This document shows positions 39,212 through 45,870 of a stretch of 64,000 nt of DNA, one piece after another. This stretch comes from Streptomyces sp. HUAS ZL42 (lineage in GTDB: Bacteria; Actinomycetota; Actinomycetes; Streptomycetales; Streptomycetaceae): positions 6,545,001 to 6,609,000 of the forward strand of contig NZ_CP160403.1 in the NCBI RefSeq assembly GCF_040782645.1, read 5' to 3'. How positions within the stretch are numbered: position 1 is the stretch's first letter; every line of letters starts with the position of its first letter. The position numbers and the translations under genes are program-made. The notes beneath the pieces are model-generated. The model did no database searches and was not told where the DNA came from. It saw nothing but the letters and a program-made list of their open reading frames with translations.

Positions 39212-39227
39212 TCTACAGCACCGTAGA
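39212..39227 (+). promoter_or_regulatory. BlaI-type operator upstream of tatA
   Basis: TCTACAGCACCGTAGA has the TCTAC-N6-GTAGA form. It lies 64 nt before the tatA start and shares the pattern with three other sites in this window. Confidence 0.65.
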
Positions 39228-39290
39228 TGGTGATGCGGGGTCGGTCCGTCATATCGGCAGCCCGTCCGCCACTGGGAGAGAGCAGACCTG

Positions 39291-39515
39291 ATGTTCGGCT
39301 TGAGTGAACTGGCCCTAATCCTCGTCGTTGTCATCGTGGTCCTCGGCATCAAGAAACTGCCGGAGCTGACGCGTTCGGCGGGTACAGCGGCCCGGATCTT
39401 CAAGAGCGAGGCCAAGGCTCTGAAAGAGCAGGACTCCCCTGATACGCCGTCTGGGACGGGACGAGTCGTCTCAGGCGCGGCCGCCGAGCGCGACGAGCCG
39501 TCCTCGCGTTCCTGA
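39291..39515 (+). CDS. tatA: Twin-arginine translocase subunit TatA/TatE
   Basis: A 74-residue protein. One N-terminal membrane helix (MFGLSELALILVVVIVVLGI) is followed by the hinge KKLPEL and an amphipathic helix (TRSAGTAARIFKSEAKALK), then a polar tail. This is the pore-forming subunit of Tat export. It stands alone, without tatBC, so it is probably an extra, conditionally expressed copy. The BlaI-type site upstream suggests stress induction. The GH95 enzyme in this window uses a Tat signal, but no direct link is shown. Confidence 0.88.
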   Translation: MFGLSELALILVVVIVVLGIKKLPELTRSAGTAARIFKSEAKALKEQDSPDTPSGTGRVVSGAAAERDEPSSRS

Positions 39516-39584
39516 ATCTCCCGGGGGACCGTTGCCCGTGCTCAAGTCTGTTCGGAACGGCGTGCGGCGCTTGGCTGTTCCGTG

Positions 39585-39666
39585 ACCCGGCCCACCCCGT
39601 CCGGTACGCGAGGACCACTGCCTGGACACGGTCGCGCAGTTGGAGCTTCGACCGGATGCGTCAGGC
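39585..39666 (-). pseudogene. C-terminal scrap of a LuxR/NarL-type response regulator
   Basis: On the minus strand TRIRSKLQLRDRVQAVVLAY followed by RTGW matches the end of NarL-type helix-turn-helix domains. No receiver or start is present. Confidence 0.55.
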
Positions 39667-39725
39667 ATGCGGTTTGACGGATTCTGAGTGGGTGTGACTC
39701 GCAGGCTCCGGCCAAGTGGCCGGTC

Positions 39726-39845
39726 AGTTCCGACGATACCGATCGCTGTCGTGCCGATCAGGCCGCCCGGATCGCGTCCGGGCAGCACGGCCTTGGCTAT
39801 CGCCCCGGCGAGCAACCCCAGAACCAGCCACGCGATGACACCCAT
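39726..39845 (-). pseudogene. GlsB/YeaQ-type membrane protein, N-terminal fragment
   Basis: MGVIAWLVLGLLAGAIAKAV followed by LPGRDPGGLIGTT is the first half of a small (about 85-residue) stress-linked membrane protein. After IGIVGT the sequence is unrelated. It diverges from blaI, with the BlaI-type operator at 39912 between them. Confidence 0.65.
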
Positions 39846-39911
39846 GTCTCCTGATCTCCTCTCGTCGGTCTCTCCGCATGCCGCGGAAGGAGACGTGTCG
39901 GCAGCCTAGCT

Positions 39912-39927
39912 TCTACAATTTTGTAGA
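39912..39927. promoter_or_regulatory. BlaI-type operator upstream of blaI
   Basis: TCTACAATTTTGTAGA is the most symmetric of the four sites: seven base pairs per arm around TT. It is placed for autoregulation of blaI and could also have governed the divergent GlsB fragment. Confidence 0.75.
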
Positions 39928-40027
39928 GGATAAGCGGGGAGGGCTGCCCGCTGTCAGCGGAGCGGTGTCGGAGGCCTATTACGATGGACCGCTCGTGAAC
40001 TGCTGGGCAGTGGAAGGGAGACAGGCT

Positions 40028-40417
40028 GTGACGAACCAGCGGCAGGGTCCCCGGCGCCGGGGACAGGGCGAGTTGGAAGGGCTGGTTCTGTCGGCCCTGC
40101 GCGATGCGGACGGTCCGGCGAGTGCGGGCTGGGTGCAGGAGCGGCTCGGCGGGGACCTCGCCTACACCACCGTGATCACCATCCTCACGCGGCTGCTGGC
40201 CAAGGGTGCGGTGACCCGCGAGCGTGCGGGCCGGTCCTTCGCGTGGACGCCGGTGTCCGACCAGGCGGGGCTCGCGGCGCACAAGATGCGCAAGCTGCTG
40301 GACGGCGAGAGCGACCGGGAAGCGGTACTGGCCAGCTTCGTCACCTCACTGGAGCCGGGCGACGAACGCCTCCTGCGGGAACTGCTGAGTCGCGCGAAGG
40401 CTGAAGGGGAAGACTGA
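40028..40417 (+). CDS. blaI: BlaI/MecI/CopY-family repressor
   Basis: A 129-residue winged-helix repressor. GELEGLVLSALRDADGPASA starts the DNA-binding domain, and the recognition region is YTTVITILTRLLAKGAVTRERAG. The C-terminal dimerisation helix (AAHKMRKLLDGESDREAVLASF) includes the region cleaved by BlaR1-type proteases in relatives. The GTG at 40028 is favoured: GGGAG lies 7-8 nt upstream. The M56 peptidase gene starts 7 nt after its stop, a standard repressor/antirepressor pair. Confidence 0.9.
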   Translation: MTNQRQGPRRRGQGELEGLVLSALRDADGPASAGWVQERLGGDLAYTTVITILTRLLAKGAVTRERAGRSFAWTPVSDQAGLAAHKMRKLLDGESDREAVLASFVTSLEPGDERLLRELLSRAKAEGED

Positions 40418-40423
40418 AGCCTC

Positions 40424-41356
40424 ATGGGGGTTTTCGTCTTTCTTCCGCTGGTGCTGCCGCTCACGGCGTGGCCGATCGCCCGCCTGGCCGAGCAGCACCT
40501 GCATCCCCGCACCGCCACGCGGCTGCTGACTGGGCTGGCCGGTGCCATGGCGACGTGCAGCTCTGTGTGCCTGGGATTGCTGATGGTGGTGGGTACCGCC
40601 CAGTTGCCCGGGAACCCGCTGCCCGACGGATGGTCGGACCCGGAGGTGCGTGAGGCGGTGCCATACGACGAGATCGCCGGGCGGGTGGCCGTACCCGCCC
40701 TGTTCGTGGTGGTGGCTGCGTGCGGAGGAACCTTGTGGCGCCACTGGCGGATGCGTCGTCGGGCCCACCGGGCGCTGGCCAGTCTTCCAGGGACCGAGGT
40801 GGCGGTGCTGCCCGACGAAGTTCCCTACGCGTACGCGCTGCCCGGCAGGGCGCGCGACCGGATCGTGGTGACGACGGCGCTGCTGTCCTGCCTCGAACCT
40901 GCCGAGCGCCGCGCCCTGTTCGCCCACGAACGCGCGCACCTCACCGCCCGCCATCACCGCTTCCTGCTCGCCGTCCGACTGGCTGCGCACGCCAATCCGT
41001 TCCTGTATCCGCTGCGCACGGCGGTGTCCTATACGACGGAACGGTGGGCGGACGAGGTGGCAGCCGAGGTGGTCGGAAGGCGCCGCACTGTGGCGCGCGC
41101 GATCGGCAAGGCGGCCCTGGTCTCCCGCGGCATTCCCGTGCCCACGCTCGCGGGGTTCGCCGCGCCCGGGCCCGTACCGCGCCGGGTGGCCGCCCTCCTC
41201 GCCCCTGCACCCGCGGCGCGTAACTGGCCGTCCGTATTCACCGCAGTGGGGGCGGCGGCGTGGACGGCGGCCGCCGGTACGGCCGTATCGGCCATGTCGT
41301 CCGCGAACTCCGCCCTGACGCTGGCCCTGATCCTGCACGCGGCGACACCTCTCTAG
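40424..41356 (+). CDS. M56-family membrane metallopeptidase (BlaR1-like, no penicillin-binding sensor)
   Basis: A 310-residue membrane protease. Helices lie at about residues 1-20, 33-58, 88-107 and 270-300. The zinc site is HERAH (in LFAHERAHLTARHH, about residue 168), with a downstream ERWADEVA Glu. In BlaR1/MecR1 this domain inactivates the partner repressor after signal capture. Here the C-terminal beta-lactam sensor is missing, so the trigger is unknown; similar short M56 proteins are common in actinobacteria. It is co-transcribed with blaI. Confidence 0.88.
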   Translation: MGVFVFLPLVLPLTAWPIARLAEQHLHPRTATRLLTGLAGAMATCSSVCLGLLMVVGTAQLPGNPLPDGWSDPEVREAVPYDEIAGRVAVPALFVVVAACGGTLWRHWRMRRRAHRALASLPGTEVAVLPDEVPYAYALPGRARDRIVVTTALLSCLEPAERRALFAHERAHLTARHHRFLLAVRLAAHANPFLYPLRTAVSYTTERWADEVAAEVVGRRRTVARAIGKAALVSRGIPVPTLAGFAAPGPVPRRVAALLAPAPAARNWPSVFTAVGAAAWTAAAGTAVSAMSSANSALTLALILHAATPL

Positions 41357-41429
41357 GGGCCGCCCGAACCGGGCAGTACGTCGGGCCAGTACTTCTGGAT
41401 GACCGGCCCGACGCACGTGCCGCGCTCGA

Positions 41430-41885
41430 TCAGAGGTCGAACTCGTGGGGCGGCAGTTCGAGGGTGAAGCACGCCTCGCGGACGACGGCTTGCTCGGTCT
41501 TGTCGAAGTCGCCGTCGGCGCCGCCGATGACGATGCCGATCTGGATGACGGCACGCGCCTCGGCGGGCTTCTTCTTCGCCTTGGCGATCTCCTGCAGCAC
41601 GCTGACCTTGCCGAAGGCGAAGTCGGCGGTGAGCTTGTCGAGGTTGTCGTCGAAGCGCCGTTGCAGGTCCGTGGCGTCGAAGTTCTGCAGTACCTCGTTG
41701 GTGGCGATGAGTTGCGCCACACGCTGACGCTCGGAGGGGTCGATGGTGCCGTCGGCGGCGGCGACCAGCGCGCACATCGCCATGCTCGCGTCGCGGAATG
41801 CGCCGCTCTTGAGGTCGTTCTTCTTCGCCACGAGCTGGGTCTGCATCGTCGACGCGGACTCCTTGATGCGGTCCCACAGGGCCAT
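41430..41885 (-). CDS. terB: TerB-family tellurite-resistance protein
   Basis: A 151-residue all-helical cytosolic protein. SMAMCALVAAADGTIDPSER near residues 34-53 and the late GIVIGGADGDFDKTEQAVVR are the two acidic, probably metal-binding TerB motifs. GGAG lies 5 nt upstream of the ATG. It converges on the M56 gene. A BlaI-type operator lies 66-82 nt upstream. TerB proteins belong to stress systems around the membrane; the role here is not known. Confidence 0.88.
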   Translation of the reverse strand: MALWDRIKESASTMQTQLVAKKNDLKSGAFRDASMAMCALVAAADGTIDPSERQRVAQLIATNEVLQNFDATDLQRRFDDNLDKLTADFAFGKVSVLQEIAKAKKKPAEARAVIQIGIVIGGADGDFDKTEQAVVREACFTLELPPHEFDL

Positions 41886-41951
41886 GAGAACTCCATACGT
41901 TCGAGTTGAAGGCCCGGTCCGCCCCAGCGGCGGGCCGGCTTCCCATGAATA

Positions 41952-41967
41952 TCTACAGCAACGTAGA
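41952..41967 (-). promoter_or_regulatory. BlaI-type operator upstream of terB
   Basis: TCTACAGCAACGTAGA differs from the tatA site at one base. It lies 67 nt before the terB start. The remaining sequence to the end of spo0M (42124) shows no gene. Confidence 0.65.
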
Positions 41968-42123
41968 AACTAGCGGCCCGACGCATAAGTTCCGGCCGAC
42001 TCGAGGATCTTCACTCCGAGAGCAGGGCTTCGACCGATCGGGGGCCGCGATCGCCTCCAATGAATCGCTGACCAGTTCCTGCGGACGATCAGCGCCTGAC
42101 CGTCGGCGGCCTCGGCCGGCGGC

Positions 42124-43119
42124 TCAGCCCTCGTCCCCCTCGTCCCCTTCCTCGCCCTCGAAGAAGTCACCGATCTCGTCGACGACTTCGGCCGCGACCA
42201 TCCCTCCGACGACACCCACGGCCAGGCCCGCCGCCCCGGCGGCGACCGCGGTGCCGATGCCGGGTCCGGAGCGGTGGCCGTCGTGGTGACGGTCGTCGAA
42301 GCCGTGGCCGTGGTGCACTTCGTGCCCGTACGCGGCGTGGGAGCCGTACGACGTCCGGTGCTCGACCAGCTGCCGGATCCAGCCATCGACTTCGGTGTTC
42401 CAGTCGCGCGCGTCGTGGTGTCCGATGGTGAAGCGGGTGAGCGCGTCTCGTCCATCTGAGAACAGGCCACCGCGCTTGTCGGCCTCCAGGACCACCTCCA
42501 TGCCGCCGGGGTTGGCGAGGAAGGTCACCTCGATCTCGTTGACCTGGTGCGCGTACTGCGGTGCCGGGGTGAGCTCGATCTCCTGGTAGAAGGGCAGCTG
42601 CTGTCCCGTACCGCCGATGCGGCCGTATTCCAGGTCGGCGGACCTGAAGCCGAAGCCGAGCTGTCCGAGGGCCTCCAGGATGGCTTCCTGGACGGGCAGC
42701 GGAGCGACGGCGAGCTGGTCCAGGTCGCCCTGGTCCTTCGCACCGGCCACCGACAACTCGGTCCGTACGCCGAGCACGATCCCCAGGCCCTGCCCGTACA
42801 GCTCGGTGATCGGGGTCTCCCACGGCAGCGTCACGCTGAACGGCACGCTGCGTTCCTCGGCCTCAGCCAACCGGAAGCCGCCACCGACGATGAACCGGTC
42901 GAAGGTGACGACACCCTCGCTCTCGCCCTCCTCGTGCTCGGCCTCGACGCGCGCCACCAGGTCCACGGCAATGTGCTCGATGTCGAAGTCGGCACCGCCG
43001 CCCTTGAGATGGATCTGACCGGTGAGCGCGCCACCGGGGCGGGCCGCACCCGGATCGACGACCGTGTCGACCGTGGGACCGCCCACGCCGAGCGAACCGA
43101 GCAGTCGTTTGAACACCAT
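42124..43119 (-). CDS. spo0M: Spo0M-family sporulation-control protein
   Basis: A 331-residue arrestin-fold protein. MVFKRLLGSLGVGGPTVDTV is the typical Spo0M start, followed by PGGALTGQIHLKGG, RSVPFSVTLPWETPIT and the C-terminal sandwich (LPFYQEIELTP; VNEIEVTFLANPGGMEVVLE). A His-rich linker (HEVHHGHGFDDRHHDGH) and a Gly/Ala hydrophobic stretch precede an acidic tail (FFEGEEGDEGDEG). The hydrophobic tail hints at membrane association. The ATG at 43119 has AAGGAG about 11 nt upstream. A BlaI-type operator is 100 nt upstream. Confidence 0.88.
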   Translation of the reverse strand: MVFKRLLGSLGVGGPTVDTVVDPGAARPGGALTGQIHLKGGGADFDIEHIAVDLVARVEAEHEEGESEGVVTFDRFIVGGGFRLAEAEERSVPFSVTLPWETPITELYGQGLGIVLGVRTELSVAGAKDQGDLDQLAVAPLPVQEAILEALGQLGFGFRSADLEYGRIGGTGQQLPFYQEIELTPAPQYAHQVNEIEVTFLANPGGMEVVLEADKRGGLFSDGRDALTRFTIGHHDARDWNTEVDGWIRQLVEHRTSYGSHAAYGHEVHHGHGFDDRHHDGHRSGPGIGTAVAAGAAGLAVGVVGGMVAAEVVDEIGDFFEGEEGDEGDEG

Positions 43120-43218
43120 CGCGGCGTTCACTCCTTTTCGTGCGTCCGTCTTGTCGGGTAGTGCCGTCGCCGCTCGTCGGGTCCGGCACGCGGAACAACC
43201 GGAAGGGCCCGGGCGTTC

Positions 43219-43234
43219 TCTACAGGCGAGTAGA
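43219..43234 (-). promoter_or_regulatory. BlaI-type operator upstream of spo0M
   Basis: TCTACAGGCGAGTAGA keeps TCTAC and GTAGA with 6 nt between. It lies 100-115 nt before the spo0M start. Confidence 0.6.
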
Positions 43235-43516: not shown

Positions 43517-44851
43517 GTGACCGAGGTCCTGCTGCTCCTGCTGGCCCTCCTGCTCACACTGGCCTGCGCGGTGTTCGTCGCGGCCGAGTTCTCCCTGACC
43601 ACCGTCGAGCGCGGCGACCTGGAGCGGGCTGCCGAGGCGGGTGAGCGCGGCGCCGAGGGTGCGCTGAAGGCCGTACGCCGGCTGACGGTCCAGCTCTCCG
43701 GAGCTCAGCTCGGCATAACCGTCACCTCGCTGGTCATCGGCATGCTCGCCGAGCCGTCCCTCGCGGCGCTCCTCAACGGCCCCTTTCAGGCCGTCGGCCT
43801 GGGCGGTGCCGCCTCGGCGGTGGCGAGCGTGCTGGGCGTGGCCGTGTCCACCGTGGTGCTGATGGTGGTGGGCGAGCTGGTGCCGAAGAACTGGGCGATC
43901 TCCCGGCCGCTGGCCGTCGCCAAAGTGGTCGCAGGTCCCCAGCGGGGGTTCACGGCCGCCTTCGGCCCCTTCATCCGGCACTTGAACAACACCGCGAACC
44001 GGTTCGTACGCCGCTTCGGCCTGGAGCCCGCCGAAGAGCTGGCCTCCGCGCGCAGCCCCGAGGAGCTGATCGCGCTGGCCCGGCACTCGGCCGCCGAGGG
44101 CGCCCTGGAGGCGGACTCCGCCGAACTCTTCGTGCGCACCCTGCACCTGAGCGAGCTGACTGCCGAGAACGTGATGACCCCGCGCGTCGACGTGAAGGCC
44201 CTCGAAGCACACGCGACGGCCGCGGATGCGGCAAACCTCACCCACGCCACCGGCCTGTCCCGCTTCCCGGTCTACCGCGACAGCCTGGACCAGGTCATCG
44301 GCACCGTCCACATCCGCGACGTCCTCGCCCTGGAACCGGAGAGGCGGCCCGTCACCCAGGTCACCGAGCTGGCCACCGCACCCCTGCTGGTGCCCGACAG
44401 CCTCACCGCCGACCGGCTGCTCGAGCGACTACGGGCCACCCGCACCATGGCCGTCGTCATCGACGAGTACGGCGGCACAGCGGGCGTGGCGACGATGGAG
44501 GACATCGTCGAGGAGGTCGTCGGCGAGGTCCGCGACGAGCACGACCCCGTCGAGGTCCCCGACCTGCTACCCGCCCCCGCCACAACGGAAGGCCGCGCGG
44601 TGTGGGAGGCGGACGGCGGCGTCCGCCTCGACCAGCTCACCGGCATAGGACTGACCGCGCCCGAGGGGCCGTACGAGACCGTGGCCGGACTGATCGCCAC
44701 CCGCCTCGCCCGCATCCCCGCCAAGGGGGACACCGTCGACCTCGACGGCTGGCAGCTGGATGTCCTGGATGTCGAGCACCACCGCGCCGACCGGATCCGC
44801 ATCACCCAACCGGCCCAGGTGCCGGCCCAGGCAGGGGAGGAGCCCCGATGA
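43517..44851 (+). CDS. CNNM/CorC-type membrane protein with CBS pair (first of two)
   Basis: A 444-residue 'hemolysin' family protein, related to Mg2+/Co2+ efflux proteins. The DUF21 membrane domain has LACAVFVAAEFSLTTVERGDL near residue 18, AQLGITVTSLVIG, and VVGELVPKNWA. A CBS pair follows (VMTPRVDVKALE; MAVVIDEYGGTAGVATMEDI), then a C-terminal transporter-associated domain (LPAEGxY-like; LDVLDVEHHRADRIRI). The GTG start fits the family. It overlaps the second copy by 4 nt (ATGA), and the two probably form a heteromer. Confidence 0.9.
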   Translation: MTEVLLLLLALLLTLACAVFVAAEFSLTTVERGDLERAAEAGERGAEGALKAVRRLTVQLSGAQLGITVTSLVIGMLAEPSLAALLNGPFQAVGLGGAASAVASVLGVAVSTVVLMVVGELVPKNWAISRPLAVAKVVAGPQRGFTAAFGPFIRHLNNTANRFVRRFGLEPAEELASARSPEELIALARHSAAEGALEADSAELFVRTLHLSELTAENVMTPRVDVKALEAHATAADAANLTHATGLSRFPVYRDSLDQVIGTVHIRDVLALEPERRPVTQVTELATAPLLVPDSLTADRLLERLRATRTMAVVIDEYGGTAGVATMEDIVEEVVGEVRDEHDPVEVPDLLPAPATTEGRAVWEADGGVRLDQLTGIGLTAPEGPYETVAGLIATRLARIPAKGDTVDLDGWQLDVLDVEHHRADRIRITQPAQVPAQAGEEPR

Positions 44852-45870
44852 CCGTGCTGCAGCTCGCCATCGGCGCCCTGACGCTGCTGACCAACGCCTT
44901 CTTCGTGGGCGGCGAGTTCGCCCTTATCTCGGTGCGCCGCAGCCAGATCGAACCGCGCGCGAAGGAGGGGAACAAGCGAGCCCGGATGACCCTGTGGGGC
45001 CTGGAGCACCTCTCCGCGATGCTGGCCACCGCCCAGCTCGGCATCACCGTCTCCTCACTGGTGCTGGGCGCGGTCGCCGAGCCGGCCATCGCGCACCTGT
45101 TGGAGCCCGGCTTCGAGGCGGTGCACCTCCCGCACGGCCTGGTGCACCCGGTCGCCTTCGTCATCGCGCTCAGCGCGGCGACGTACCTGCACATGCTGAT
45201 CGGCGAGATGGTCCCGAAGAACATCGCCCTGGCCGCGCCCGTCCCCACCGCGCTGCTGCTCGGCCCGCCTCTGGTCGCCCTCACCCGGGCGCTCCGACCG
45301 GTCGTCTTCGGCATCAACGCCTTCGCCAACACACTGCTGAAGCTGCTGCGCGTCGAACCCAAGGACGAGGTCGAGTCCGTCTTCACCGACGACCAGCTCG
45401 TCCGCATGGTCGTCGACTCCAGAGAGGCCGGCCTGCTCAGCCCGGCCGACGGCGAACGGCTGCGCGACGCGCTGGAACTGGGCACCCGCCCAGTGGGCGA
45501 AATCCTCGTCCCCGCGCAGAAGATGCGCACGGTCGGACACACGATCACCCCTGCCGAGCTGGAGCGGACCGCGGCCGCCGCGGGTTACTCACGCTTCCCC
45601 GTCACCGGCCCCAACGGCACGCTGTTGGGCTATCTGCACATCAAGGACACCTTGGGCGTCACCGACCGCGATCAGCCGTTCCCGCGTACTGCCCTGCACC
45701 CCATCACCGGGGTCCGTATCGACACGCCGCTGGACGACGCCCTCACCGCCCTGCGTGCCGATGGCAGCCACCTGGCCGCGGTGGCCGGCGACACGGGCGC
45801 GGTCCTCGGCTTCGTGACCATGGAGGACGTCCTGTCCGAGCTGGTCGGCCCGGCCCCGGCCACCGACTGA
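44848..45870 (+). CDS. CNNM/CorC-type membrane protein with CBS pair (second of two)
   Basis: A 340-residue paralog of the preceding protein. DUF21 motifs are TNAFFVGGEFALISVRRSQI, TAQLGITVSSLVLGAVAEP and LIGEMVPKNIA. CBS repeats follow (ILVPAQKMRTVGHTI; LAAVAGDTGAVLGFVTMEDV). It lacks the C-terminal transporter-associated domain of its partner, a usual asymmetry in actinobacterial pairs. Ends without an obvious terminator before a convergent small gene. Confidence 0.9.
   Translation: MTVLQLAIGALTLLTNAFFVGGEFALISVRRSQIEPRAKEGNKRARMTLWGLEHLSAMLATAQLGITVSSLVLGAVAEPAIAHLLEPGFEAVHLPHGLVHPVAFVIALSAATYLHMLIGEMVPKNIALAAPVPTALLLGPPLVALTRALRPVVFGINAFANTLLKLLRVEPKDEVESVFTDDQLVRMVVDSREAGLLSPADGERLRDALELGTRPVGEILVPAQKMRTVGHTITPAELERTAAAAGYSRFPVTGPNGTLLGYLHIKDTLGVTDRDQPFPRTALHPITGVRIDTPLDDALTALRADGSHLAAVAGDTGAVLGFVTMEDVLSELVGPAPATD

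Follow-up and report, generated by a model that had tools for sequence, protein, structure and literature searches.

A palindrome associated with a BlaI repressor and a sensor-less membrane protease marks a putative envelope-stress regulon in Streptomyces

The genome of Streptomyces sp. HUAS ZL42 carries, within about 4 kb, four copies of the exact palindrome TCTAC-N6-GTAGA, grouped around a gene for a BlaI-type repressor and a gene for a membrane zinc protease. They lie in the window analysed here, i.e., the whole stretch of 64,000 nucleotides at 6.545-6.609 Mb of the single-contig 9.87-Mb genome. As claimed in a previous sequence-only reading of this DNA, the palindromes precede tatA, blaI, terB and spo0M; all four are exact, are located outside genes and stand 63-100 bp before the gene starts. 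The first (TCTACAGCACCGTAGA, 39212..39227) is 63 bp upstream of a tatA-like gene (39291..39515, plus strand) encoding 74 amino acids (aa) with a TatA_B_E domain (Pfam, 52 bits). The second (TCTACAATTTTGTAGA, 39912..39927), which is the only site of the strict form TCTACA-N4-TGTAGA in this genome, is found 100 bp upstream of blaI (40028..40417, plus strand; Penicillinase_R repressor of 129 aa, 81 bits), and the gene of the protease, of the M48/M56 type (40424..41356, plus strand; 310 aa), starts 6 bp past blaI. On the minus strand, terB (41430..41885; 151 aa, Pfam TerB, 98 bits) is preceded at 66 bp by the third palindrome (TCTACAGCAACGTAGA, 41952..41967) and spo0M (42124..43119; 331 aa, Pfam Spo0M, 259 bits) at 99 bp by the fourth (TCTACAGGCGAGTAGA, 43219..43234). 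The gene names were upheld by Pfam, except that the protein called M56 is better described as M48 (63 bits versus 21 for M56).

The window alone gives modest statistics: allowing up to two mismatches, 15 matches were counted versus 7.7 expected, a number reached by 2 of 100 shuffles. Since this is too weak to decide, the analysis was extended to the complete genome and to the genus. The genome scan that had been proposed for the 16-bp pattern returned five exact sites in 9.87 Mb, four of them in the 4-kb cluster, for which a simple placement estimate gives a chance of about 1e-9. Since a reversed control pattern is found six times in this genome, it is not the number of palindromes that is unusual but the way they cluster and where they lie. 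Among 22 one-mismatch places listed elsewhere in the genome (TCTACA-N5-GTAGA), 20 were fetched and 19 of these are inside predicted genes. The fifth exact palindrome (TCTACTCGTGCGTAGA; L006:1501-1516, position 6024598 of the genome) is intergenic and of other than the strict form, and its centre is 78 bp from the start of a gene for a 188-aa membrane protein. The further Penicillinase_R matches of this genome (L001, L002, L004 and L005) were set aside, as none has TAC-N8-GTA at the gene; L004 and L005 are weak matches (26.5 and 25.3 bits), whose proteins are unlike BlaI.

Conservation was followed in two sets, which overlap (L015 and contig 38 of G095 agree in length and in sites): the loci of the best 80 of 219 blaI relatives, of 79-93% identity, and a sample of 121 Streptomyces genomes, that is, the own genome and 120 further ones. 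The 80 relatives come from Streptomyces, with one record labelled Kitasatospora. At least one TCTAC-N6-GTAGA site was found in 76 of the 80 loci (147 sites in 1.47 Mb), 57 have the palindrome no more than 450 bp upstream of blaI, and in 77 the protease gene adjoins blaI. The gene order around blaI varies by species, and the sites accompany terB, spo0M, tatA, terD and others; in L017 (S. cupreus PSKA01), for instance, each of tatA, blaI, terB and spo0M has one. Of 151 sites, 138 could be paired with a gene, namely 135 of the 147 in the 80 loci and three of the four in the window, where the gene caller missed tatA. The strict form TCTACA-N4-TGTAGA has 199 matches in the 121 genomes versus three for the reversed control. 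A BlaI relative (E ≤ 1e-20) was detected in 96 of the genomes, 75 of which have the strict site; none of the other 25 has it (Fisher 1.3e-13, uncorrected for kinship). With the BlaI cut at 1e-36, the site occurs in 66 of 78 genomes with BlaI and in 9 of 43 without, and these nine all have more distant BlaI relatives. Full-length terB of at least 77% identity is kept in only 4 of the 25 BlaI-less genomes, and no strict site was found upstream of terB in those four. Moreover, BlaI relatives of 47-51% identity also have the site just upstream (G009, G051 and G080) and, in two genomes outside the first sample, the one site fetched from each belongs to terD (L323) and to tatA (L324).

To describe the targets, 198 sites outside the own genome were read with their surroundings, leaving out the strict site of the latter; genes were called by a simple GC-position script, clustered into families by blastp at 1e-8 and named from Pfam, and distances in the relatives were measured from the palindrome centre. 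A gene of one of 14 recurrent families starts within 300 bp downstream of 177 of the 198 sites, a figure which is optimistic because the families were partly defined from the same sites; 12 sites have no assigned gene. The commonest neighbours are TerD and BlaI (52 sites each) and TerB (45), followed by Spo0M (16), TatA (14), Acyl_transf_3 (12), LCP (10), VTT/DedA (9), CNNM (6), PAP2 (5, in two clusters), a small unassigned protein (5), and ion channel, UppP/BacA and GlsB-like families (4 each). UppP, PAP2, VTT and LCP proteins act on undecaprenyl-phosphate carriers or wall-attached polymers. In the 80 loci, the recurrent families make up 181 of 195 genes at less than 300 bp from a palindrome, 23 of 104 at 300-1000 bp and 69 of 243 at 1000-3000 bp, over a background of 27 of 633 at 3 kb or more; this tally excludes genes of less than 200 bp and those at the ends of loci, and the members at 300-3000 bp are accounted for by the clustering of the targets.

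Many sites are remote from blaI. Recurrent families follow 57 of the 68 sites for which any listed blaI is either at a distance of over 20 kb or on a different contig; here blaI genes are those among the matches listed, one of the 198 sites lacks a matched coordinate, and three of the 57 are actually beside a blaI relative. On the same contig as a listed blaI, the distance is 49 kb for terD and about 320 kb for spo0M in G096, and 120 kb for terB in G057, while one site common to UppP and an acyltransferase is 3.6 Mb from the listed blaI in G064. Judging from these families, the putative regulon is much wider than the four genes of the window. Pairs of palindromes, with starts 16-125 bp apart, were also seen between divergent genes (L269, L270, L201, L286 and L177); the flanking genes are acyltransferase/terB, blaI/DedA, blaI/terD or LCP/terD and, as paired palindromes share one gene, the 198 sites correspond to fewer promoters. 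In a single case (L122:1112-1127) a strict palindrome has a BlaI relative of 52% identity on one side and, on the other, a divergent transglycosylase-domain gene.

The position of the palindrome in the promoters, tallied with the window sites included, is consistent with an operator. An element TANNNT, which may be read as a -10-like promoter element, ends directly next to the palindrome in 42 of 48 spo0M promoters (TATGCT in 31), and in the window TATGCT abuts TCTACAGGCGAGTAGA on the minus strand; in 46 of 74 terB promoters TANNNT overlaps the first base of the palindrome. A protein bound there would cover the -10 region or the start site, as for a repressor. A sigma-E-like terB promoter was considered and rejected as a general feature, since GAAC stands 25 bases before the palindrome in just 15 of 74 cases.

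The repressor scores 81 bits with the Penicillinase_R domain (PF03965), whose curated cut-off is 22.6. Its nearest solved relative by sequence is 2g9w, which we take to be M. tuberculosis BlaI Rv1846c. Phe104 is invariant in all the 18 aligned BlaI sequences (taken out of 80 relatives and the window) and Phe is also found in 2g9w; in S. aureus, according to the available part of the source, BlaI is cut between Asn101 and Phe102 (PMC9834060). The sequence has no cysteine, and hence no CXC motif of the CopY type, and the NCBIfam CopY model gives 24 bits versus a cut-off of 122.

The window protease has HERAH at residue 168 and ERWAD at 206, and the zinc site formed by H168, E169, H172, E206 and D210 (HExxH and ExxxD) is invariant in 36 of 36 aligned proteases, out of 64 relatives and the window. 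A Peptidase_M48 match was found in 36 of these 36 and a Peptidase_M56 match (E ≤ 0.001) in 5. As had been suggested, a penicillin-binding sensor is absent: the 310-aa chain stops soon after its last helix, and M48/M56 are the only Pfam matches in 36 of 36 sequences. The structural model (mean predicted local distance difference test, pLDDT, 74.8) resembles ZMPSTE24/Ste24p and BlaR1, with a high Foldseek probability for the top matches, and was used as weak support only. Residues 61-80, between two hydrophobic segments, have conservation values of 0.99 and 0.95 per ten residues, to be compared with 0.99 for the catalytic helix (161-170); values of 0.97-0.99 are also reached at the N-terminus and at residues 191-200 and 251-260. 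This proposed sensor loop is poorly modelled (block means 55-71, residues 61-90), and the topology of BlaR1, as given in the accessible part of the report (PMC9834060), would place residues 61-80 outside the cell. The loop at about residues 60-85 is the best candidate for the sensing element.

The TatA-like product is one of three Tat-family matches in the genome. The TatA family has an F-G hinge motif; among 24 distinct TatA relatives of the putative regulon (e.g., L050 and L183), eight retain the hinge glycine and three have F-G. With TIGR01411 the score is 49.3 bits, for a cut-off of 53.9, and the protein reaches none of the NCBIfam cut-offs. Thus, of the "extra Tat pore subunit" of the sequence-only reading the TatA_B_E domain stands, while the pore function is uncertain, the hinge glycine being missing in 16 of the 24 relatives, which suggests that this protein might have a role other than that of a translocation pore.

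Next to the cluster, a CNNM/CBS transporter-like gene (43517..44851, plus strand) is divergent from spo0M and starts 282 bp from TCTACAGGCGAGTAGA; a gene of this kind is near a palindrome again in relatives, but it is an uncertain member, and it may or may not be under the control of the spo0M palindrome. The CNNM/CBS transporter-like genes form a tandem pair at 43517-45870. On the minus strand, at 39702-39845, the remnant of a glsB/YeaQ-like gene (Transgly_assoc family) is divergent from blaI; a longer GlsB-like reading frame was observed in L226, L015 and L089, where the palindrome is common to the glsB-like gene and blaI.

Co-regulation of tatA, terB and spo0M with blaI through the palindrome, as the sequence-only reading had proposed, is strongly supported by the conservation of the sites and by their association with BlaI across the genus. 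From these, and from the position of the sites and the families of the targets, we infer binding and repression by BlaI, its cleavage and the kind of signal. It is quite probable that BlaI controls these genes through the palindrome and that the protease is the off-switch. That the state of the envelope, or of its lipid carriers, is the signal has slightly better than even prospects; the earlier guess of envelope stress gains support because the further targets are UppP, PAP2, VTT/DedA and LCP. Sigma-W of Bacillus is an envelope-stress response, and the best reading of the data is a BlaI-protease switch that regulates itself together with a scattered envelope-stress regulon, which would resemble part of the sigma-W effector set. 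Dimeric BlaI would bind TCTACA-N4-TGTAGA-like operators at its own operon and at dispersed promoters of membrane and envelope genes, here tatA, terB and spo0M and elsewhere also terD, LCP, UppP, PAP2, VTT/DedA, acyltransferase and glsB. The protease would be quiet until the envelope is disturbed and would then cut BlaI, probably just before Phe104; the target promoters would open at the same time, the blaI-protease promoter among them, so that the switch could be reset. As there is no penicillin-binding domain, the input is probably the state of the membrane or of the lipid carrier, read by the membrane helices and by the conserved loop at about residues 60-85. More tentatively, and with somewhat less than even confidence, we propose a widespread regulon of envelope integrity in Streptomyces, serving the undecaprenyl-phosphate cycle and membrane repair, in which a sensor-stripped BlaR1-like protease, as a minimal receptor made of a single protein, reads the membrane through the short, nearly invariant external loop and destroys BlaI; it would be a repressor-protease counterpart of sigma-W reached independently, with overlapping effectors (Spo0M and TerD-like proteins).

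Several observations weigh against the BlaI-protease switch. Three of the four window palindromes have an imperfect outer arm base, and in related repressors the core of a cop-type operator is insufficient for binding, as far as the available text reports (PMC7253601). The strict site is absent from 21 of the 96 genomes with a BlaI relative, 12 of which have a close BlaI; 5-7.4 kb fetched around blaI were inspected in these 12. Three (L288, L289 and L297) have one-mismatch intergenic sites before terB or spo0M, in one (L294) the sole one-mismatch site is within a predicted gene, and in eight no usable palindrome was found in the 5-7.4 kb. The operator has possibly diverged at the latter, and these loci imply that for some BlaI-protease pairs the operator is a different one or the targets are in other places; the protease is nearby in six of these eight (L290, L291, L292, L293, L295, L296, L298 and L299). 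Beyond the genus the strict site is rare, being present in 9 of 137 class-level genomes; when one site per genome was fetched, one of the nine was before a BlaI gene, at 45 bp from the palindrome centre in a genome of another family (L322), and none before another recurrent family, which makes Streptomyces the apparent centre of the circuit. In L318 and L320, from two genomes of another actinobacterial family, the strict palindrome precedes a gene that was judged by eye to be glycosyltransferase-like. Regarding the promoters, those of blaI have TANNNT next to the palindrome in only 19 of 96 cases, and the overlap of this element with the right arm in terD (65 of 84), tatA (24 of 30) and LCP (16 of 19) is partly built in, since the palindrome supplies TA. 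As for the "M56 antirepressor" of the sequence-only reading, a zinc protease does follow the repressor, but Pfam assigns it to Peptidase_M48 (63 bits, over the cut-off), while Peptidase_M56, at 20.9 bits, stays under its cut-off of 31 and so below the level of BlaR1/MecR1; the best Foldseek E-value is 0.028. Finally, the envelope theme would derive from protein families and not from a measured stimulus.

Alternatively, the palindrome could be bound by a different regulator that co-occurs with blaI, BlaI being only one of its targets, as some close BlaI loci devoid of the palindrome might indicate. This is highly improbable, since none of the 25 BlaI-less genomes has the strict site, blaI is, with terD, its commonest neighbour (52 of 198), and the site precedes both BlaI relatives of 47-51% identity and the BlaI of another family (L322); moreover, the half-site TACA/TGTA is that reported for BlaI, MecI and CopY in the consulted part of the literature (PMC7253601). 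The equality of the exact genome count with its reversed control (five versus six) would fit a chance or functionless repeated element, to which we assign a negligible probability, already contradicted as it is by the clustering, the intergenic position and the 199 strict matches versus three controls in the genus.

Other explanations concern the signal. The same BlaI regulon might be governed by a protease that senses a metal, most likely copper, with the Ter proteins acting in a metal or oxidant response: a BlaI/BlaR1-type pair, PetR/PetP, is under copper control and a response to metal is described for the CopY repressors, which belong to this family, in the portions of the reports available (PMC7896320; PMC7253601), terB is named in Pfam for tellurite resistance, and CNNM/CBS transporter-like and ion-channel families recur near the sites. 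We regard it as unlikely, because the targets include UppP, PAP2, VTT/DedA and LCP, the recurrent families include no recognisable copper exporter, and the cysteine-free BlaI cannot have a CopY-type CXC motif. A classical beta-lactam switch, whose sensor would be a separate penicillin-binding protein and for which the genes listed here would be secondary targets, agrees with the kinship to BlaI/BlaR1 and with the single-occurrence target in L122, a transglycosylase-domain protein of the wall-building kind; nevertheless, no beta-lactamase is found among the recurrent families of the 198 sites and the protease chain ends shortly past its last helix, which makes it very unlikely.

The BlaI-protease switch proposed here would provide a testable regulon and operator for widespread families of uncertain function, namely TerB, TerD, Spo0M and lone TatA-like proteins, and would tie them to the enzyme families of the lipid-carrier and wall-ligase steps. 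It suggests a further role for the BlaI-BlaR switch, so well known from penicillin resistance, as a general stress circuit in a genus of antibiotic makers; in addition, a sensor-less protease could open the core signalling step of BlaR1 to study without the drug-binding domain. The same switch sites appear before the same gene families in many Streptomyces species, and the stress-response circuit appears to be new: a literature search (titles and abstract starts, among the matches listed, mostly without subscription journals) found no description of this regulon.

The closest known systems are compared here on the basis of the available parts of the cited papers. As in BlaI-BlaR1 and MecI-MecR1 of S. 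aureus, a membrane zinc protease comes after the repressor and has HExxH and ExxxD, the putative operator has TACA/TGTA half-sites and the protease model resembles BlaR1; by contrast, the extracellular penicillin-binding sensor domain is absent, and the recurrent targets are envelope and stress families, many of them dispersed over the chromosome, with no beta-lactamase. Thus, the Streptomyces pair would work like BlaI-BlaR1, but it lacks both the sensor domain and the above-cut-off M56 match of BlaR1. The DNA-binding family and the half-sites are also shared with CopY/CopR (PMC7253601), which differ in having the CXC metal motif and no partner protease; the TACA-TGTA spacing is four bases here versus two in the cop consensus TACANNTGTA (PMC7253601). 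Mycobacterium BlaI (Rv1846c), whose structure we take to be the 2g9w mentioned above, is the nearest solved relative by sequence. Beyond beta-lactamase it also controls sigC, ATP-synthase genes and Rv2151c, and the accessible text names no family of the present set among its targets (PMC8265638, PMC12565901).

In Synechocystis, PetR, a BlaI-type regulator, is degraded by PetP, a BlaR1-type protease, and the signal, as would be the case here, is not a beta-lactam; unlike here, the pair is a copper-controlled plastocyanin/cytochrome c6 switch with a small regulon of four proteins (PMC7896320, a commentary). BlaI_0696 and BlaI_1845 of Clostridium thermocellum are autoregulated, as is proposed here, encoded with BlaR1 genes and provided with small regulons defined by inverted repeats, but their half-sites are GTCTAT and GACTAT, in ordered site pairs, and the regulons include three and one operons (PMC8457756). 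With regard to the effectors, the yceC-yceH operon of Bacillus subtilis presumably encodes TerD-like proteins. Both this operon and spo0M, the latter as a core member, are controlled by sigma-W (PMC3498285), a sigma factor rather than a repressor-protease pair, and this overlap is the best external pointer to envelope stress as the theme of the putative Streptomyces regulon.

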